A stretch of 21,781 nucleotides of DNA from a virus, in the IMG/VR virus record IMGVR_UViG_3300002518_000028, positions 12,478 through 34,258 of that record, one strand, 5' to 3'. Numbering within the stretch: position 1 is the first letter of the stretch; each line of letters opens with the position of its first letter. Below are positions 11,332-21,781 of this stretch, piece by piece. The translations under genes were made by a program, and so were the position numbers. The notes beneath the pieces were generated by a model, which saw nothing but the letters and a program-made list of their open reading frames with translations, had not been told where the DNA came from and made no database searches.

Positions 11332-14300
11332 TGTTTAATATTGACGATCTTTATTCTGTATCTAGTGGGGTAAAAGTATTTAATTACTGGAACCCCTTCG
11401 TAACAAAGCACGACACCTCTTCTTTCTATAATTGGGAGCAAGATAACTTACCTCTTTACGACTTAGAGGAAAGGACTCACTATATATGGGAAAAATTAGG
11501 CTTCCCTCTGTCGGGAGTTCCTGGTATGGCTTATATAGTATCTGCTACTGTTCCTGATACTGCTGGGAGTGCTAATATATTTACTTCAGTATCTGCTGCT
11601 ATAGAAGCTCTGCCTGAAATTATTAGAATGCCTACTCTTATTGAAGTAGCTGTTGCAGGAGATATGGGAGAATTAAATCTCAATAATATTAAGTGTGAGG
11701 GTGATGGAGTTCTTGAAATAGTTAATAGGGCGTTTGCTCCTATTAGTGATAATAATTATGATATGTACATGCAGAGATACCCCAACTCTGCTGGACAGGC
11801 TTACTTCCCTAACACACTTAGCGGTGCCCATGGTGGATTTTTTGGAACTTTGTCTAGTACAAGTGCCCTTTCCATGTCGTCTAATACATCTTCGTTAATA
11901 AAATGGGCTGCTGGTACTGGTTCTGAGTGCAGAAACCTTATTCTGGCAGGAAAAGGAACATCTGCTACTAACTGGGAAGATATAGGGGGTTATAGTTACC
12001 CAGGAGCCAATAATAATAGTGTTGCATACAAAATTCAGTCGGGGGCTAATCTATTTTTAAAGGCCAATCCAATAAGTTATGTTGCTTCTATACCAGAATC
12101 TGCGGTGGTGGCTGATACTACAATCAAGGATTATGATTTGTCAACCATAAGAGATGATACTGGGGCAGAAACATATCCTAGTCAGTACACTGCTGGGCAA
12201 TTAGCCAAGGGTGTATGGGCTGGAAACTGGTTTAGTAAGGTAAAAGCTCAAAATTGTGATGGCCCAATTTACATAAGAGGCTTTATAGTTGATGGTGCTA
12301 ATTCTACTACCAAAGGTATAGGAGCTTATAATTGCCATAACTTAACTTTAGAAAATTGTGGTGCTATGAGATGTACTACCGCAGGTTTTGATATACAAAA
12401 CTCTAATATTAATTTACGAAGACAAGCTATTGCATCTAGAAATTATAATTCTACGGACAGAGGTACATTAACTACTTATGGGTTTAAGGCTACTAATAGT
12501 GATATAACTTTCGTTACTGATTCCTATGCTAGTGGAGTAAAGGCTACATTAGCCAGTCACTTCCATGATTACGGGATATATTTAGATAATTCTATACTGC
12601 ATGGTGGAGATATTATTGATAATCAGCAAATGATATCTAGTTTTTATACTGATATAGGTTTTAATAATACGGGATTGTATTGTTCTAATTCTAAGTATTC
12701 TATGGATGGAGTTACAACTTCATATAATAACCGAATTAATATAGAAGCTAATGATTCTGTCCTTGAGGTGGAGCAACTAAGAAGTTGTAATGCTCAACAC
12801 TATGGATTACTAATGAACAATAGTAAGTTTAGGTATAATAAAAATCTAAATACCTCTGCTGTTGGTAGAGCTACCACATCACAGAACTCAACTTACCCTA
12901 AGGAGCATAATTATCCTATCCTATTCTATTATAATGGGCAGCATGTAGTATTGCAAGGTGGGTCTACTTATGGTCCTACCTATCCTGTAGGTACTTCTGG
13001 GATTGATATTACTCATTATTATAATCAGGAAATTTATTATGTTAATCATGGTAGAGCTTATGGCACCACAGCTTCGGGGGCAGCTAAACCTGGAGTAGTT
13101 GTTGATAACTCTATAGGGGAGTTTACTTGTGCTAAATTTATATCTGGTGCTATAAAGCATCAGGATACTTCAGTACCCAGACACTTACTTTCTACTAATA
13201 ATGGTACTGCGACTGTTAGAGGACTTACCAATATAGACGATGGAAATAATACAGTGTGTTATTTTGATGGCCCCAAACAAACTTTCTGTGCTGCTGCTAT
13301 AGCAGATAATAATTCAGTAATTAACTTTACAGGACCTGTAGCCATGTATAATCATGGGTATGGAGCTATAGCCTCTAATAATTCTCTTATTAGGGTTTCC
13401 CCTCCTATGGATGAATCTGGTTCTTATGTAGGCACTGGGAAAGCGGCAAATGATCCGTTAGGTACAAGCGGTTGGGGTGGTGGAACACACAAGGCTACTC
13501 CAGTTATGGAGATTCATTGTCAGGGTGCTGCATTAGTTGCGGATAAAAGTTCTAGCTTAGTGTTAGAGGAATTAGGATATTCCCCAACGCATTGGCTTGG
13601 GGATGAAGGCGACAGTAATATAGATTCCTATATGGGTGAAGCTTCCTTTATTAATTTAGTTACTTCTGGTGCTTTGCAATTCTATCCAAACAGAGCTACT
13701 AATGCAGCAGGGATGTCTTATCCTATGGCTGGGGATGGCGAATCTACTGCTGGGGGTGACACATTTATAGGTACATCAGTAGCAACTAATAGGGAATACA
13801 CCAATTATTTACAGAAGGATACCACATTAAGTTGCTATAGAGTATTGTACCAAGGCAATGGAGCGGGGTATGGGGACGCTGGAATATCTACTAATATCCA
13901 ACAGATAAGTACTGGTGGTATGTGTGTTAGAGCTACTAACGATAGCTTTGTAAAAGTAAGAAATGTTCATTTCCCTATGGGCCATAGAGCTAGTAATGAA
14001 AGTTTTTATGATGCTTCTAGTGATCTTGCTGGGTGTGCCCAATTGTTGATGTGGAATATTGCTGATACATCAGAATTGGATGCTGCTTATTGCCTTGTTA
14101 GTGGGGTGTATCCAAGCTTGGCTGGATACACAGGACCAAGAGCAGTTCATACACCCTCTGGTGTAACAGATGCTGCGTATGAGCATTGGGGGTCTCAAGA
14201 TGGCTCTGGTATGCTATCTGGAATGCCTTCTGGAACCCCAGATACAGGCATTATTTCTGTACTAGATCACTACGGTAGTGGTGTACATTTTACTCAAGAC

Positions 14301-14888
14301 TTTGATCAAAGACTACATGGTTTGTCTGCTTTTATGTCCTCTATAGGTACATCACGAACAGGTATAACTACAAGTGGTAGTTATGGCCCTGTAGGGTATC
14401 AAAACAGGGGACCATTTAGGTTATACTTCTCGGTTCTCCCTGCCGCTAAAACTCTATCTTATGTGAGTTCCGATGGTGGCGGTTGGGGACCAGGAATAAA
14501 CACAGCAGATAACGCACCTTATCAACATTTATCTCAGGGCTATTTATTGTCTGGTAATTGTTCTGGTCCTGCTGATTTTAGTGGTCTCTACCCCCAATTA
14601 CTTAATGACCATTTGTTTAGTGTTAGTAGTATACTGGCTACCAGTGGATACTATTACCCTTCAGCTATGATGCCTGACGAGAGAGCTACGGTATGGTTAG
14701 ATGAGTCTGCGGCTAATACATTTGCTAATGCAAAGCATTGTAATACGGATTACAGTGGTAGGATAAAATTAGTTAATATTTATAGGGCTAGGACAGATGT
14801 TCATAGTGAGAGTCATATAGGTAATAGTAGGGGACATGGTTTTGGATTTAGAACATCTAATGTATTTGATAGTAAACGGAGGACATAA
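11331..14888 (+). CDS. Parallel beta-helix tail protein with N-terminal docking motif
   Basis: This encodes 1185 residues. Residues about 33-48 (YNWEQDNLPLYDLEER) are a version of the N-terminal motif found in the next two proteins. A segment around 85-125 (FTSVSAAIEALPEIIRMPTL, then strand repeats) is the usual lead-in to a pectate-lyase-like right-handed beta-helix. Coil repeats are clear at about 305-505: short hydrophobic strands separated by Asn/Gly turns, such as GIGAYNCHNLTLENC, GFDIQNSNINL, GIYLDNSILHG and GLLMNNSKFRYNKN. Further coils appear near 600-745. Such proteins are trimeric or monomeric fibres, spikes or depolymerases; I see no recognisable catalytic site, so enzymatic activity is not claimed. 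The last 30 residues are His/Gly/Ser-rich (His1158, His1162, His1169) and may be a separate tip or peptide. Start and stop both overlap the neighbours by one base; no Shine-Dalgarno precedes the start. Confidence 0.7.
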   Translation: MFNIDDLYSVSSGVKVFNYWNPFVTKHDTSSFYNWEQDNLPLYDLEERTHYIWEKLGFPLSGVPGMAYIVSATVPDTAGSANIFTSVSAAIEALPEIIRMPTLIEVAVAGDMGELNLNNIKCEGDGVLEIVNRAFAPISDNNYDMYMQRYPNSAGQAYFPNTLSGAHGGFFGTLSSTSALSMSSNTSSLIKWAAGTGSECRNLILAGKGTSATNWEDIGGYSYPGANNNSVAYKIQSGANLFLKANPISYVASIPESAVVADTTIKDYDLSTIRDDTGAETYPSQYTAGQLAKGVWAGNWFSKVKAQNCDGPIYIRGFIVDGANSTTKGIGAYNCHNLTLENCGAMRCTTAGFDIQNSNINLRRQAIASRNYNSTDRGTLTTYGFKATNSDITFVTDSYASGVKATLASHFHDYGIYLDNSILHGGDIIDNQQMISSFYTDIGFNNTGLYCSNSKYSMDGVTTSYNNRINIEANDSVLEVEQLRSCNAQHYGLLMNNSKFRYNKNLNTSAVGRATTSQNSTYPKEHNYPILFYYNGQHVVLQGGSTYGPTYPVGTSGIDITHYYNQEIYYVNHGRAYGTTASGAAKPGVVVDNSIGEFTCAKFISGAIKHQDTSVPRHLLSTNNGTATVRGLTNIDDGNNTVCYFDGPKQTFCAAAIADNNSVINFTGPVAMYNHGYGAIASNNSLIRVSPPMDESGSYVGTGKAANDPLGTSGWGGGTHKATPVMEIHCQGAALVADKSSSLVLEELGYSPTHWLGDEGDSNIDSYMGEASFINLVTSGALQFYPNRATNAAGMSYPMAGDGESTAGGDTFIGTSVATNREYTNYLQKDTTLSCYRVLYQGNGAGYGDAGISTNIQQISTGGMCVRATNDSFVKVRNVHFPMGHRASNESFYDASSDLAGCAQLLMWNIADTSELDAAYCLVSGVYPSLAGYTGPRAVHTPSGVTDAAYEHWGSQDGSGMLSGMPSGTPDTGIISVLDHYGSGVHFTQDFDQRLHGLSAFMSSIGTSRTGITTSGSYGPVGYQNRGPFRLYFSVLPAAKTLSYVSSDGGGWGPGINTADNAPYQHLSQGYLLSGNCSGPADFSGLYPQLLNDHLFSVSSILATSGYYYPSAMMPDERATVWLDESAANTFANAKHCNTDYSGRIKLVNIYRARTDVHSESHIGNSRGHGFGFRTSNVFDSKRRT
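14878..14883 (+). promoter_or_regulatory. Ribosome binding site for the 14888 gene
   Basis: GGAGGA lies four bases before ATG 14888, inside the last codons of the beta-helix gene. It is the strongest Shine-Dalgarno match in the window and precedes the first copy of the duplicated gene pair; the second copy at 17543 has none. Confidence 0.65.
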
Positions 14889-17542
14889 TGGCTGAAGATA
14901 CTTTTGGAGGCAATCAGGGGGGAGGTAATGTAACCTATAGTCCTAGTGACCATAAATTTACAGACCCTATACGATATTTTAAGGCTAATGATCCCTACTA
15001 TTGGGAAGTAGATAATATTCCTATTACACAATTACAGGAAAATATTTTATGGCTTAAAGATCAAATAGGGTTTGTTGATGATGGTGGTGGAAATACTATC
15101 ATGGGGAATGTAACTCGTAAAAACTTTATAGAATTGCGTCCTTTTGCTTCTGGTGGAATGACAGCTAGTATTAATCCAGGTAGATTTATTGGTAGAGTTA
15201 ACGATGCTTATGGTACGGGAATATCGCAGCTACTTGTTAATGCTTTGATGAATTATACGGATGGTCAGTTTGATCGTTCAAGAAGTATTGAGTTACCTGA
15301 TAATATTTTATTTGATTTGGTAGGAGCTTCTGTCAGTGGGGTGTTAGGTAATAATGGATTATATGATCACTTACAAACTCATGTAGCCAATTTTAGTATA
15401 AATCAACCTAATACTATTGAGTATCAGAATTTATATACTTACGATCTTAAAAATGATTTAGGTATAAATAGTGTGTATGATATTCCTAAGATAAAACTGG
15501 CCTTGTGGCAACAAGATACTACCACTCAGACTTACTACCCTGAGGCTACAGATTTACAGCAGTTAGCAGTAGAATACACTAGAGCTTGGGGAGCCCCGTT
15601 TAGAACAGCTTTGGTGGATGTAGATACTCAATTAGATATAGAGATTCCTCAATTTGAAGAGGCTGATTATGCTAATGAAACTTCTACTAATGCGGGAGGG
15701 ATTAGAATTGATCTATTATTTGTATATACTAAGCCTGTAGATGCCTCTTCTACTACTATAGCTAAAGCCAATACTACTAATTTACCTGCCAATATATCTG
15801 CTCCTACTTTAGGTATAGTTAGAGGTGCTGGTTTAGTAAATCTAACAGCGTCTTCTATATTGTCTGATGGAGGAACGGGAACATGGAATGGGCAACCAGT
15901 AGGCTCTGAGTTCTTAGATAGTGTTACCTATAGCGCAGGTAAGAGTAAGGATGGTTATTTCCTAAAAAGAGATGATGGGAGTTTAGCACTTGATGACGAA
16001 GGAAACCCACAAATATCATCTCCAATGGGGGATACAGTACAGACAAGTATTGGAACTAGTGGAATTTATGGTAATTTCCCAAGCCCTGATGATTTAATGA
16101 ACTTAGCTCCTTATTTAGCAGATGAGATTGCTGGTAGCAAGTCTTTTGCTTTGATAGGACAATCAGTATTACCTATAGCTTATATATTTGTAAGAAGGGG
16201 GCAAGTGAATATTACTGGTGATGATATTTTAGATATCAGACCATTCTTTAGGACTACTGAATTAACTTACAATGAGCGTTCTGGTTTAGCGGCAGCTAAC
16301 CCTCCTGCATCGTTGGCAAATCCAGTTGTAACGGATCGTGATTTACAGAAAAGAATTTTTGAACTGCAAAAGCTTATTCCTGAAGACGCAGACCTAACCT
16401 TACCTCAATTTCCTCGTACTGTAGCAGCAGGAACTATATTTGGAGGACTCAAGTATGGTGTAGAGGGAGCTTTATTAAGAATGGGTGCTGGAACGACAGC
16501 AAATAACGGTTTTGTTCCTCCATCAACTTATGGGTTTAACACTGATGCTGGTTATAATGCTAATAAAATTCCTTTAAAAACTTGGTTTACTACAGAATTA
16601 GGGTATACTGAAGATACAGATTTACCGCTTAATCCAGATTGGGACACATCTGATTGGGCAAAATCTGTTGGGTGTGATGGGGGAGTGACTGATTATATTA
16701 ATACTAGTTGGGTGATGGCAGGGAATCTAGCGGGGGATCTTGTTCCAGGGGCACCCTGGCATATCGAAGAGCAGTTTAGAGCCCCACAATTTAATGCAGC
16801 AGATATGGAGAATTGGGTATTTAATAATTCACAGCAGGAAGGCAGAGTATTTTCTAACCCAGGAATAGCTTTTAGGAATGGAGCGCAGCCTCTCAGTAGC
16901 CCTCTGGATCGCTACCTGTACAATGGAACTCAAGTTAATTTTGTTAGAAAAAGAATTAATATAGACAAAACTGATGTACAGGATTGGATGGGATCTTATG
17001 ATGTATTAGTAGAATATACTAATTGTGCCCCAGCAGGAGGGCTACCTCCATGGAATGGGACGGATAATGCAGATATCCAATCGGTACAAACAAATTCTTA
17101 TGAAGGATTTAATGGGTTACATATAGAGAAGTATCCAAAGTACTTTAATATTGTAGCAACAATGTCTGCTCCATCAGTTAATTCAAAGGCTATGACAGAT
17201 GCTGATACAAAAACTGGGACTAAAGTTGATGGTTCTCAGGTAGGAGATTACGGTAGTGTTATGCATCCTATAAATGTAAGAGATACTAGCAAAGATCAGT
17301 TTGGTTGGTGGAATGCTTATGCAGGATATGTAGTTACATCTGATTTACAGAAGGGATTATTATCTACCGCAGATCAGACTCTCGCAGATAAAAATTGGAA
17401 CAAAGTATCTCCTCTTAATTCTAATTTCGCTGTATGTGCTTATCCTACTGTTAAATTTACTGTAATTGGATATCCTCATGGGTACAGGTCTGAGGGCTTA
17501 GGTGGGAATAACCCCACTATAAAATTAAACCCAGCTTTTTAA
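14888..17542 (+). CDS. Large virion structural protein, first of a tandem paralog pair
   Basis: This encodes 884 residues. No named family is recognised. Residues about 25-60 carry the shared docking motif, with Trp39 in a YWEVDNIPITQL context. It is followed by an ELRPF...PGRFIGRVNDAYGTG block and a conserved LGNNGLYDHLQTHVANF segment. A second highly conserved core runs from about 399 (PDDLMNLAPYLADE) through VLPIAYIFVRR to DIRPFFRT at about 449 and an ELTYNERSGLAAANPPASL segment. Beyond about 490 the protein is less conserved with its paralog, apart from a PDWD..DWA...C.G.VTDYIN patch and the final 45 residues. No signal peptide, membrane segment or catalytic motif is visible. Position in the tail operon and the docking motif shared with a beta-helix protein suggest a baseplate- or fibre-attached structural component. 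Start chosen for the strong GGAGGA site and the TAATG overlap. Confidence 0.6.
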   Translation: MAEDTFGGNQGGGNVTYSPSDHKFTDPIRYFKANDPYYWEVDNIPITQLQENILWLKDQIGFVDDGGGNTIMGNVTRKNFIELRPFASGGMTASINPGRFIGRVNDAYGTGISQLLVNALMNYTDGQFDRSRSIELPDNILFDLVGASVSGVLGNNGLYDHLQTHVANFSINQPNTIEYQNLYTYDLKNDLGINSVYDIPKIKLALWQQDTTTQTYYPEATDLQQLAVEYTRAWGAPFRTALVDVDTQLDIEIPQFEEADYANETSTNAGGIRIDLLFVYTKPVDASSTTIAKANTTNLPANISAPTLGIVRGAGLVNLTASSILSDGGTGTWNGQPVGSEFLDSVTYSAGKSKDGYFLKRDDGSLALDDEGNPQISSPMGDTVQTSIGTSGIYGNFPSPDDLMNLAPYLADEIAGSKSFALIGQSVLPIAYIFVRRGQVNITGDDILDIRPFFRTTELTYNERSGLAAANPPASLANPVVTDRDLQKRIFELQKLIPEDADLTLPQFPRTVAAGTIFGGLKYGVEGALLRMGAGTTANNGFVPPSTYGFNTDAGYNANKIPLKTWFTTELGYTEDTDLPLNPDWDTSDWAKSVGCDGGVTDYINTSWVMAGNLAGDLVPGAPWHIEEQFRAPQFNAADMENWVFNNSQQEGRVFSNPGIAFRNGAQPLSSPLDRYLYNGTQVNFVRKRINIDKTDVQDWMGSYDVLVEYTNCAPAGGLPPWNGTDNADIQSVQTNSYEGFNGLHIEKYPKYFNIVATMSAPSVNSKAMTDADTKTGTKVDGSQVGDYGSVMHPINVRDTSKDQFGWWNAYAGYVVTSDLQKGLLSTADQTLADKNWNKVSPLNSNFAVCAYPTVKFTVIGYPHGYRSEGLGGNNPTIKLNPAF

Positions 17543-20179
17543 ATGGTTTCTACCAGTACACATCTCTTTACGGATTCTATACGATATTTTAAGGCTAACG
17601 ATCCTTATCATTGGACTGTAAATAATGTGCCTCTCAAACAATTAGAAGAAAATATTCTTTGGGTTAAAGATCAAGTCGGAAACCCATTAAGTGAGGAGGA
17701 AGATAACTCTATTGTAGGGGATGTAGATCGTTCAACCTTTACAGAATTGCGTCCCTTCTCTACAGGGAGTATGAAGGTTACGGTAAGTCCTGGGCAATTT
17801 ATGGGTAGAGTTAATGATGCTTACGGGACTGGTATATCTGACCTAGTGGTTAATGCTTTAATGGATTATTCAAAGGGGGGGTATGAGCGTTCAAGGAGTG
17901 TTACATTACCTGATAATATCTTATATGATTTAATAGGCGCATCTACTAGTGGAGTTTTAGGTAACAATGGGTTATATGATCATTTACAAACTCATGTTGC
18001 TAACTTTGATTCTGTGGGGTCTATAGAGTACCAGCACATGTACGGAAAAGATAAGAAAAATTTAAAGTTAGGTATGTATGATATACCCAAGGTGAAGTTA
18101 TCTCTTTGGCAGCAGGATACTACTACAAATACTTTATGGTTTCCTAACCCAACCGATCTTCAACAATTAGCAGTAAATTATACCAGAGTATGGGGATCTC
18201 CTTTTAGAACCTCCTTAGTGAATGTAAATAAACAATTAGATATAGACATTCCTATACTAACAGATAATGATTATGTTAGTGAAAACCCTACTATTGCTCC
18301 TGATCTAAGAATTGATCTATTGTTTGTATATACTAAACCTATAGATGCTTCCTCTACTACTATTGCTAAACCACAGGCTAGTATTGGTAGCGTTTCACCA
18401 GTTACTCTAACTGCTCCCGCTCTGGGAATTGTTAAGGGGGCTGGTATAGTAAGTTTATCTACTTCCTCTATAGGGGGAGAATGGGATGGGCAAAAAGTTG
18501 ATTCAACTTTTTTAGATACTCCTTTATATAAGGATAACAAAGACAATAAAAATAACTTTTTAAAAAGAGAACTTTCTAATCTAGATGCAAATTTAAATCC
18601 TCAAATAGCCTCTCCTTTAGGGGACGCAATGAGTACTGGTAATTTCCCAAGTCCTGATGATTTAATGAACTTAGCTCCTTACTTAGCTGATGAATTAGCA
18701 GGAAGTAAGTCTTCTGCTCTGATAGGACAATCAGTATTACCCCTAGCTTATATATTTGTAAGAAGAGATCAGACAATGATTAAGAATAGTGATATTTTAG
18801 ATATCCGACCCTTCTTTAGAACTGCTGAATTAACTTATAATGAACGGGCTGGTTTAGCGGCAGCTAATCCTCCAGCCTCTTTAGCTAATCCTGTAGTTAC
18901 AGATAGTGATTTACAAAGAAGAATTTCTGAAGTAAAGCGAACTATTGTAGATGTAGATGCGTTTATGCCTACGATGCCAACTATAGTTGGGGCAGGAACT
19001 ATATTTGGGGGACTTAAGTTCGGTGTAGAGGGGGCTTTATTAAGAATGGGTGCTGTGGGGGGTGCAGGGTCTACTCAGGGAGGGTTCCAGGCTATAGAAA
19101 GTCCACCTTATAATTTTGATGTTTTTTCAATGTATTATGGTGAGAATCAAGATATTATAGAGACTTGGTTTCAGGAACAGTTCGGTTATCATGAAGGTGG
19201 GGAGATGCAAGTGATTCCTTTGGACCCTGATTGGGATTTGGCCGACTGGGCAGTGGAAAAAAATTGTGCTGGTTGGGTAACTGATTATATCAATGTTGGT
19301 TGGACAACGGCTGCGGGGCACCCAAAGTCTACGGGTGCTGCGGCTACAAATAATAGAACCCCACAGTTCGGACCTCTGGGTAGGGCTATGGAGACCTGGA
19401 TAGCTACTGGGTCCAAAGAAGATGGAAGATCTTTTGTTACTCCAGGCAAAGCATTTTTATGGCAAGTGGATCTTGTCTGGGATGCTGATGATCGTAACGG
19501 TCGTGTTAGATTAGATGGGACTCAGATTACTTATGTTAAGAAAAAAATTAATATAGATACAACTGATGTAAGTAATTGGATGGGTTCCTACGATGTAAAG
19601 GCACAGTTTGTTAACTGTGTTCCTAAGTCTGGGGGTGGAAAACATGTTCCTAACGCTTCCTTCAATTGGGGCGTCAAGGACGACTGGGGAAAGGTGACCC
19701 CTATGTATGAGACATTTCATGGAATATTCATAGAAAAGTATAAAACCTATTTTAATATTGTAGTTGCCTACCCAACCCCGTCTATTAATACTCCGATTAT
19801 GTATAATGGTTGGGTGAACTGGGACTGGGGACCAAACGGACCCAGTACTGGGTATAATATATTGGGGGATCCAGTTGGGGATTATGATCATGCATTTCAC
19901 CCTATAAATGTCCGAGGAACGGATAAAAGTAAGAAAGGATACTGGAATGGTTTTGGAAGTTTTGCAGTTACATCTGATTTTCAAAAAGGATTACAAACTG
20001 TCACAGATCAGAAAGAATCAGATATGACTACTTTCGGAAAAGTATCTAATCTTAATTCAAATATAGCTTTTTGTGCGTACCCAACAGTTAGCTTTACTAT
20101 AATAGGAAATCCTAGAGGGTTTAGTAATGATAACTTAGGGGGGAATGTACCTACAATAACATTAAGATCTATGTTCTAA
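17543..20179 (+). CDS. Large virion structural protein, second of the tandem paralog pair
   Basis: This encodes 878 residues and is collinear with the preceding 884-residue protein. In the docking motif (Trp24 here) 27 of 38 aligned residues are identical by hand count, and similar conservation continues to the LYDHLQTHVANF segment. The second core, with DIRPFFRTAEL at about 420 and NERAGLAAANPPASLANP after it, is almost unchanged, including long near-identical DNA stretches. It lacks the first ~15 Gly/Ser-rich residues of its paralog, and differs most between about 460 and 830, where it has longer Trp/Gly-rich segments. The start ATG directly follows the previous TAA and has no Shine-Dalgarno, so translation probably depends on the upstream paralog. 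Function unknown; the two products could form a hetero-oligomer or occupy symmetry-related or successive positions in the same structure. Confidence 0.6.
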   Translation: MVSTSTHLFTDSIRYFKANDPYHWTVNNVPLKQLEENILWVKDQVGNPLSEEEDNSIVGDVDRSTFTELRPFSTGSMKVTVSPGQFMGRVNDAYGTGISDLVVNALMDYSKGGYERSRSVTLPDNILYDLIGASTSGVLGNNGLYDHLQTHVANFDSVGSIEYQHMYGKDKKNLKLGMYDIPKVKLSLWQQDTTTNTLWFPNPTDLQQLAVNYTRVWGSPFRTSLVNVNKQLDIDIPILTDNDYVSENPTIAPDLRIDLLFVYTKPIDASSTTIAKPQASIGSVSPVTLTAPALGIVKGAGIVSLSTSSIGGEWDGQKVDSTFLDTPLYKDNKDNKNNFLKRELSNLDANLNPQIASPLGDAMSTGNFPSPDDLMNLAPYLADELAGSKSSALIGQSVLPLAYIFVRRDQTMIKNSDILDIRPFFRTAELTYNERAGLAAANPPASLANPVVTDSDLQRRISEVKRTIVDVDAFMPTMPTIVGAGTIFGGLKFGVEGALLRMGAVGGAGSTQGGFQAIESPPYNFDVFSMYYGENQDIIETWFQEQFGYHEGGEMQVIPLDPDWDLADWAVEKNCAGWVTDYINVGWTTAAGHPKSTGAAATNNRTPQFGPLGRAMETWIATGSKEDGRSFVTPGKAFLWQVDLVWDADDRNGRVRLDGTQITYVKKKINIDTTDVSNWMGSYDVKAQFVNCVPKSGGGKHVPNASFNWGVKDDWGKVTPMYETFHGIFIEKYKTYFNIVVAYPTPSINTPIMYNGWVNWDWGPNGPSTGYNILGDPVGDYDHAFHPINVRGTDKSKKGYWNGFGSFAVTSDFQKGLQTVTDQKESDMTTFGKVSNLNSNIAFCAYPTVSFTIIGNPRGFSNDNLGGNVPTITLRSMF

Positions 20180-20180
20180 A

Positions 20181-21134
20181 ATGAGTAATAGTAATTTATG
20201 GTTAACCTGCTCTCTTAGACCTCCTGGGTACTTCCCTCCTGGGGGTCAGGGTCCTGGAGGTGGGGGGAATGGAGATCCCCCGTGTACTGGTGATGATTGT
20301 GACGGTGGGGAGACTGGGTGTGATGCGCTATGGTACTATTTCTGTCCCCCAGGTAAGGTGGGGGAGTTATGTTCTGGTAGATGGTTAGTGTGTGATGACG
20401 ATGATCCTTCAACCAATATTGGTTTAGATTGTGAGGATTGTCAAGGTCCCACTCAGTTTACCGCTAATAATGGAATTACCTACTATTTAAGCCAAGATGA
20501 ATGTGGTTTGGATCCTAATAACGAATGTTCCGAGACAGGACCTGGGGAGCCCCCTGAGACTTGTGACGCAGTCTACTGTAAAAATCCAGGAATGGCCCTA
20601 GGAAAATGTCAGGGTCTTGCTACATTTGATAGCATCCTTGATAAGAACGAGTATGATCAGTGCGCTGCTATTAGAGATTCTGGTGGTGTAGGTAGTTTTG
20701 GTGGTGGGGATGGGTGTAAGTACTGGCCTGTTCCAGATGGCACAAAAACTAGCCAACAATGCGACCTTTACGGAAACTGGAATTGTACTCCGTGTGGTGA
20801 AAAACCACCCAAAGGTGGTGGTGGTGGGAGTGGACCAACGCTGCCTACCACGCCCCCAGGGGCCTCTGGGCCTGACTGTTGGTCTTGTCCTGCAACCCCA
20901 TCATACGTTTGCTGCCAAAGAGATACCCCCAGGGATAAGTGGAATAAGTGCCCAGATGGATCCTATAAAACGAAAAAATTATGTGATGCTAGTTCATCTT
21001 GTGAAAAACTTTGCGATGAGTGCTACAACAAAGGTGGGGTAGGTATACCAGATTGGGTATGTGCCCCAATATTGAAGCCTTGTCCACATAAATGTGACCC
21101 AAATACAAAGTGTGTGAATCCAGATACAGATTGT
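20181..21134 (+). other. Cysteine/glycine/proline-rich head region
   Basis: This is the coding segment for residues 1-318 of the last gene. It is visibly richer in G and C than the rest of the window, with many GGGG and CCCC runs driven by Gly and Pro codons and TGT/TGC cysteine codons. CCTCCTGGG occurs twice (20220-20228 and 20235-20243), encoding Pro-Pro-Gly. The spacing of cysteines is irregular and does not form an exact tandem repeat. Confidence 0.6.
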
Positions 21135-21781
21135 GGTATGGAGACCCCGCCCCCTGGGGATGATGACGGTGGGGAGATCCCTGAGTTTAGCGATGATTTT
21201 GAGGCTAAGGATTCTGTATATCTTTATAATCATGTTGATACTATGTATGAAAGAAATACAAGTAATAGAAAATACTTTACATCTAGACCAAAATTTCAAG
21301 AAGTTGGTAGAGGATCTTTGCCACCGACTCTCTTTAAGAAGGGGGTACATGCAGCAATACTTGCAGTGTATCAGATGAATAATGTAAGTTCTATGCTATT
21401 TTCTGATTTCCCTTATTCTAATTTAAGTAATGATCATATAGAGCAAAGTCTACAGAATCATATAGTATCCTTAATAAATCAAGTTAAACTTGCTACTGGT
21501 AAATCAATAAGATCACAAGTACTAGGAACTATAAGACGATTATTAATATCGAACAGATTAAATTCAGTAACTGCTTCTGAATTAATTAAATACTTAAAGA
21601 ATCTTAAAAATGTACAGTCTAAATATCCAGATACTAGAGGATCTACTTATGCAAATATATCCACCTACACTTCTGAGGCTAAGGCTATCAGGATGGCTGG
21701 TGAAAAATCTTACCCGTTACAATCTGATGCTTATGATGGGTTAACACAAAGAAGAATGCAGTTATGGAAAACTTTATCTAC
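20181..21781 (+). CDS. Cysteine-rich virion-operon protein, 5' part (partial, runs off the window)
   Basis: The frame starts at ATG 20181, one base after the previous stop, and stays open for 533 codons to the window end. No Shine-Dalgarno is visible; the next in-frame ATG is about 140 codons on, so coupling to the upstream gene is the likely mode. Residues 1-318 contain 33 cysteines, including four CxxC pairs (Cys84/87, 202/205, 233/236, 278/281) and one adjacent Cys-Cys, with Pro-Gly runs (near 14-34), a CDDDD stretch and a pentaglycine linker near 213. After Cys318 comes a Pro/Asp-rich hinge, then at least 190 residues without a single cysteine that look largely helical (HAAILAVYQMNN, IEQSLQNHIVSLINQVK, ASELIKYLKNLKN). 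No family is recognised. Location suggests a tail or baseplate structural protein; the cysteines may bind metal or form disulfides after release. Confidence 0.6.
   Translation, partial: MSNSNLWLTCSLRPPGYFPPGGQGPGGGGNGDPPCTGDDCDGGETGCDALWYYFCPPGKVGELCSGRWLVCDDDDPSTNIGLDCEDCQGPTQFTANNGITYYLSQDECGLDPNNECSETGPGEPPETCDAVYCKNPGMALGKCQGLATFDSILDKNEYDQCAAIRDSGGVGSFGGGDGCKYWPVPDGTKTSQQCDLYGNWNCTPCGEKPPKGGGGGSGPTLPTTPPGASGPDCWSCPATPSYVCCQRDTPRDKWNKCPDGSYKTKKLCDASSSCEKLCDECYNKGGVGIPDWVCAPILKPCPHKCDPNTKCVNPDTDCGMETPPPGDDDGGEIPEFSDDFEAKDSVYLYNHVDTMYERNTSNRKYFTSRPKFQEVGRGSLPPTLFKKGVHAAILAVYQMNNVSSMLFSDFPYSNLSNDHIEQSLQNHIVSLINQVKLATGKSIRSQVLGTIRRLLISNRLNSVTASELIKYLKNLKNVQSKYPDTRGSTYANISTYTSEAKAIRMAGEKSYPLQSDAYDGLTQRRMQLWKTLS

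Follow-up and report, generated by a model that had tools for sequence, protein, structure and literature searches.

The window, meaning the whole 21,781-base stretch of DNA analysed here, covers positions 12,478 to 34,258 of a 36,367-base record of an uncultured virus (G000:C1:12478-34258). An open frame at 20181-21134 on the plus strand encodes 33 cysteines within residues 1-318 of its product, or 10.4%. Four CxxC motifs start at residues 84, 202, 233, and 278, and the same stretch holds 43 acidic residues, 83 prolines and glycines, and one histidine. The frame extends beyond the window end to give a protein of 945 amino acids, with three N bases just past the window (codons 535, 548, and 549). 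Of the 34 cysteines in the full-length protein, 33 are at residues 1-318 and the single remaining one is residue 609. Both the counts and the abrupt stop at residue 318 agree with the preliminary description of this DNA. Phage particles assemble in the reducing cytoplasm, and cytoplasmic and phage proteins are usually cysteine-poor. The mean cysteine content is 0.83% (54/6530) in the other seven complete genes of the window and 0.67% in 1,457 ORFs from related loci that lie outside the family described below. At either background rate, the binomial probability of 33 cysteines in 318 residues is below 1e-24; the excess is thus far beyond chance. The features of the locus are as follows, with both linkers assigned from the sequence.

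14888..17542, plus strand: paralog of 884 amino acids, aligned with the 878-amino-acid protein
17543..20179, plus strand: upstream neighbour, a structural-type protein of 878 amino acids, paralog of the 884-amino-acid protein
20181..20234, plus strand: N-terminal cap, residues 1-18 (MSNSNLWLTCSLRPPGYF), holding the family-wide single cysteine C10
20283..20795, plus strand: cysteine-rich block A, residues 35-205, with 18 cysteines (C35-C205), an even number
20796..20876, plus strand: Pro/Gly linker, residues 206-232, cysteine-free
20877..21134, plus strand: cysteine-rich block B, residues 233-318, with 14 cysteines (C233-C318)
21135..21212, plus strand: acidic Pro/Gly linker, residues 319-344
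21213..21779, plus strand: start of the conserved C-terminal domain, residues 345-945, which runs outside the window to G000:C1:35495

Baseplate-gene homologs adjoin the locus, as in a T4-type tail module. Upstream of the window protein, gp25-like (PHROG 261, 43) and gp53-like (PHROG 7145) baseplate genes are accompanied by a tail-protein homolog (PHROG 48) and by large proteins of structural type; the gene after the window protein is PAAR-like (PHROG 281, E 2.5e-5). The genes for the 884- and 878-amino-acid proteins are tandem paralogs; in L003 and L006, a single copy occupies the corresponding position. L003, which is the closest relative contig, runs on into a T4-type head protease and a major capsid protein. 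The capsid protein shares about 32% identity with cyanophage capsids, and phmmer searches also match it to pelagiphage HTVC008M and RM378. The source virus is a member of a T4-superfamily lineage with no cultured member in the collections searched. Such uncultured lineages are covered by the Far-T4 literature (PMC4360716, PMC7198788), in which the protein is not mentioned. The locus resembles T4-like PAAR-tip and baseplate modules (T4 gp5.4, gp25, gp53) in its gp25-like and gp53-like neighbours and in the PAAR-like gene that comes after the gene of the window protein. The window protein itself, however, has no profile homolog among T4, cyanophage, pelagiphage, or RM378 sequences and belongs to no PHROG. 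The stretches of RM378, HTVC008M, and ACG-2014d that were searched are also without a family profile match.

Neither the whole window protein nor its parts match anything in Pfam, PHROGs, NCBIfam, PDB sequences, or 50,697 phage records, and one scan of GTDB genome contigs gave no match. The family is unnamed and undescribed in every library searched. The preliminary description had spoken of a tail operon and had found no known family to match; the neighbouring genes and these searches, which include the cultured phages, bear it out in both respects. To collect relatives, the 878-amino-acid neighbour was used as bait and matched 164 viral contig stretches, and scans with this structural protein and the head protease gathered 160 loci. 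Iterated profiles of the C-terminal part then gave 121 ORFs, of which 89 are non-redundant and all are in uncultured viral contigs. The family gene occurs in one copy per record, and none of the other plus-strand proteins of the family loci is cysteine-rich.

A C-terminal domain of about 550 amino acids is common to all members, while the N-terminal extension is variable. The domain of the window protein is 47% identical to that of L003 over about 600 amino acids. AlphaFold2 predicts the fold of this domain with confidence in the L003 homolog (pLDDT 90.6, pTM 0.90, 76 sequences). Foldseek comparison of the model with PDB and BFVD gave no match below E 0.08, with the best at about 0.1. A second look with VIA at Foldseek's own list for the domain yielded no Z above 3.3, a value reached over 62 residues. 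The predicted fold is therefore unmatched in the Foldseek and VIA comparisons, which falls short of proving a new fold. A 1392-amino-acid virion protein of cyanophage S-TIM5, a weak BFVD match, was rejected as a relative, as it has one cysteine and no profile match.

In the 79 complete members, the extension ranges from 87 to 1249 amino acids and from 1 to 101 cysteines. L049 and L080 have one cysteine each and L045 has three; distant homologs in general have 1-9, so the cysteine-rich stretches are an optional elaboration of the family. A quick tree of the C-terminal domain places the window protein in a ten-member clade in which all extensions exceed 9% cysteine. On the same quick tree, the label 'rich' changes about 8 times, versus 19.8 for shuffled labels. 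Together with the cysteine-poor relatives, this count indicates that cysteine richness is clade-bound, not universal. The cap is more general. Each of the 79 complete members has a cysteine among its first 25 residues, in a conserved cap with forms such as WITCWLxDPGDLPPGDGPPGG or TFGCGEFLPGxGPGNF; in 55 of them, the cap cysteine is followed by PG. In the clade of the window protein, C10, L12, P15, and G16 of the cap are invariant in 12 members, and most cysteine columns of block B (233-318) are kept in nearly all of 13. L033 (12598-15744) and L036 (12592-15837) have identical C-terminal domains and extensions of 433 and 465 amino acids; the 32-residue indel suggests a recent change in the length of a linker or repeat.

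The PAAR-like gene adjoins 38 of 78 family members by a simple profile. It was rejected as an obligate neighbour on this count, and because in the low-cysteine clade the next conserved gene follows directly. The gene is absent directly downstream in that clade (L049, L072, L069, L056, L036, and others), and the cysteine-rich clades mostly have it there. The next gene but one after the window protein (L002:5904-6332) encodes a small acidic protein in which a CPLC motif (H/A-CPLC-x-S-L-E/D) is conserved. Its counterparts in relatives come after the PAAR-like gene and, in the low-cysteine clade, directly after the family gene.

The numbers of cysteines in the extensions are not evenly divided between odd and even. 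The total is odd in 66 of the 79 complete members (p 1e-9) and even in 13, and odd counts are found in 154 of 297 control ORFs. Thinning to <80% C-terminal domain identity leaves 52 odd totals of 62, and thinning to <45% leaves 24 of 30 (p 0.0014). The signal is stable when the extension boundary is shifted by -40 to +40 residues. In the window protein, the segments carry 1 + 18 + 14 cysteines. Across the family, the cap segment has an odd number in 62 of 68 cases, and modules delimited by Pro/Gly have an even number in 80 of 100 (p 1e-9), or in 56 of 70 with stricter thinning (p 4e-7). Even counts per linker-delimited module are what a string of disulfide-paired modules would carry. Four linker definitions agree on module parity, although single proteins are sensitive to the choice, as a looser definition cuts some modules into odd pieces; in the window protein it sub-splits block A as 10 + 4 + 4. 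The cysteines beyond the cap thus appear to occur in pairs, with even numbers in the modules. Among 29 disjoint nearest pairs with unequal counts, the difference is even in 19 (p 0.14), which is consistent with gain and loss in pairs, short of proof. The parity is therefore strong in the counts, which include shared descent, and weak as independent changes.

Within the cysteine-rich clades, the cysteines are kept while the residues around them drift. All 31 cysteines are kept between L016 and L066, all 89 between L013 and L014, and all 61 between L075 and L079, with the other residues 69%, 66%, and 61% identical, respectively. In 78 pairs where both members have at least 10 cysteines, conservation is 64% for cysteine columns and averages 37% for the others. 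In five close pairs, synonymous differences are found at 90 of 227 conserved cysteine codons. dN is 0.22-0.35 in the extension versus 0.03-0.18 in the C-terminal domain. This faster evolution could reflect a loosely constrained, low-complexity expansion, in which the cysteines have no structural role and follow shared descent only; extensions as short as tens of residues and as long as 1250, together with the few cysteines of distant homologs (1-9), would be in keeping with it. Such an expansion is nevertheless very improbable in view of the complete retention of 31, 89, and 61 cysteines amid residue drift and synonymous change in cysteine codons, and of the parity results. The cysteines are strictly conserved within each cysteine-rich clade, yet not essential to the family. 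The preliminary description had held that homologs lacking most of the cysteines would argue against a conserved structural role, and here the outcome is mixed: distant homologs do lack them, and the cysteine-rich clades conserve them strictly.

Three uses of the cysteines had been proposed in that description: a metal-binding array, a disulfide shield that locks after lysis, and a surface that exchanges disulfides with the host envelope. The high cysteine content, the four CxxC motifs of the window protein, and the reducing cytoplasm in which folding before lysis takes place would all suit an array in which cysteines coordinate zinc or iron-sulfur sites in a zinc-ribbon-like manner. In the 43,022 extension residues of the family, however, CxxC is depleted, with 105 observed versus 139 expected (0.76x shuffles), whereas CxxC knuckles would be enriched over chance in a zinc ribbon or Cys4 array. 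CxxxC is observed 220 times versus 131 expected (1.7x), and CxxxxC, Cx6C, and Cx7C are also enriched (range 1.7-1.9x over shuffles). Histidine makes up 0.47% of these residues. Such an array would also be expected to gain and lose cysteines in fours, or to have histidine in place of cysteine. Taken modulo 4, the extension counts leave a remainder of 1 in 31 cases and of 3 in 31, with no excess of multiples of four plus one, and modules of 4, 6, 8, 14, and 18 cysteines all occur. Furthermore, nine N-terminal stretches have no zinc-domain match in Pfam. With no preference for multiples of four, too few CxxC motifs, and little histidine, the extensions are much better explained by disulfides than by a zinc array, and a metal array is unlikely. 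Of the three proposals, disulfide-locked modules are supported by the paired cysteines, even in number per module and near-invariant in close relatives; the zinc array loses ground with its depleted CxxC, the lack of fours, and the one histidine of the window protein.

Disulfides could also link chains. In Agrobacterium phage Milano, structural proteins contain 2.4% cysteine and are cross-linked by disulfides, an example of a virion in which such bonds are both abundant and functional (PMC10491603, PMC10811340). Milano and its relatives 7-7-1 and OLIVR4 are contractile-tailed phages with many structural-protein cysteines as virion disulfides (PMC10491603, PMC10811340), and Milano and 7-7-1 were the only precedents found in the literature on cysteine-rich phage tail proteins. 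On this precedent, the cysteines of the window protein would mainly bond neighbouring tail subunits rather than lock modules internally, and the odd cap cysteine, which every member has, is the candidate residue for bonding one chain to another. The excess in Milano, however, is spread over capsid, collar, and sheath, with bonds linking subunits, while the window virus has one rich protein (10%) and no such excess across its structural proteins. At 0.83% cysteine, the other tail proteins of the window offer few bonding partners. In addition, the even counts between linkers indicate that cysteines pair within modules, and cross-linking as the main use is improbable.

Disulfide-locked modules have known parallels in EGF-like, Kunitz, and knottin-type modules, which are likewise short and even in cysteine number, with drifting sequence between the cysteines and with Pro/Gly linkers joining the modules. 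A recurring [FYW]x[TS]xxxCxxxC piece of the family recalls the end of Kunitz domains, which we take as a lead only. Unlike these modules, the family varies in cysteine spacing from clade to clade and has no Pfam or PDB sequence match. Stretches from the N-terminal part of the window protein, L003, L006, L138, L014, L079, L012, L111, and L008 match no Pfam family at E up to 1, and those tested against PDB sequences gave no match at E up to 1. AlphaFold modelling of window residues 1-350 with 12 sequences gave a weak model (mean pLDDT 52), for which Foldseek found nothing below E 0.3. Better islands in this model are at about residues 46-110, which are beta-rich (pLDDT about 70-84), and at 231-283 (about 82-88 up to residue 270).

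Our preferred reading, which we consider fairly probable, is that the extension is an exposed part of the tail tip composed of disulfide-locked beads that are oxidised after lysis. The modular layout, the pairwise bookkeeping and strict conservation of the cysteines, the conserved C-terminal domain, and the genomic setting are seen in the sequence and point this way, whereas disulfide bonding, a place in the virion, oxidation after lysis, and an adhesion or shielding role are inferred. The protein would belong to the tail module of an uncultured T4-superfamily virus as an accessory protein. The conserved structural part would be the C-terminal domain of about 550 amino acids, most likely docking on the tail tip or baseplate, and the N-terminal part would be a flexible string of small modules with Pro/Gly linkers between them. 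Within each module, the cysteines would pair as disulfides, in preference to some other pairwise use, and hold a short, freely drifting chain in shape. The extra cap cysteine, outside these pairs, may be a free thiol or bond to another chain. Since assembly takes place in a reducing cytoplasm, and since the virion disulfides of Milano are abundant and functional, the most likely time for the bonds to form would be after lysis, in oxygenated water. Sulfhydryl oxidase (PF04777) has no match in 19 relative contigs, nor in control genomes, so that this absence carries no weight. The outcome would be a stable, protease-resistant extension on the virion, most likely exposed and acting as an adhesin, shield, or spacer, probably through an adhesion or shielding surface.

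A bolder version, possible though doubtful, is that the family represents a new class of tail appendage. Such an appendage would consist of bead strings, locked by disulfides and oxidised after lysis, on a C-terminal docking fold not seen elsewhere. Its exposure or attachment would be under redox control, through an invariant unpaired cap thiol that bonds a partner on the tail tip or the host. If the preferred reading is true, a widespread group of aquatic T4-like viruses carries 30-100 paired cysteines in a single tail protein and uses disulfide chemistry on exposed phage surfaces, as is seen on animal cell surfaces. The family would then be a concrete test case for how and when virion disulfides form. 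An unclassified tail family is now named, with a C-terminal fold that is confidently predicted and unmatched. The combination of an odd total and even modules also offers an inexpensive way to test uncultured proteins for disulfides from their sequence.

Two further observations concern repeats in the family genes. In L012 (11951-12170), about 72 residues with 8 cysteines lie ahead of the usual cap motif; the extra stretch resembles a later repeat of the same protein and may be a duplication or an assembly artefact. In L146 (4534-5025) and L150 (5632-6123), both on the minus strand, a spurious antisense ORF of cysteine and serine arises from a DNA repeat of short period within the family gene.
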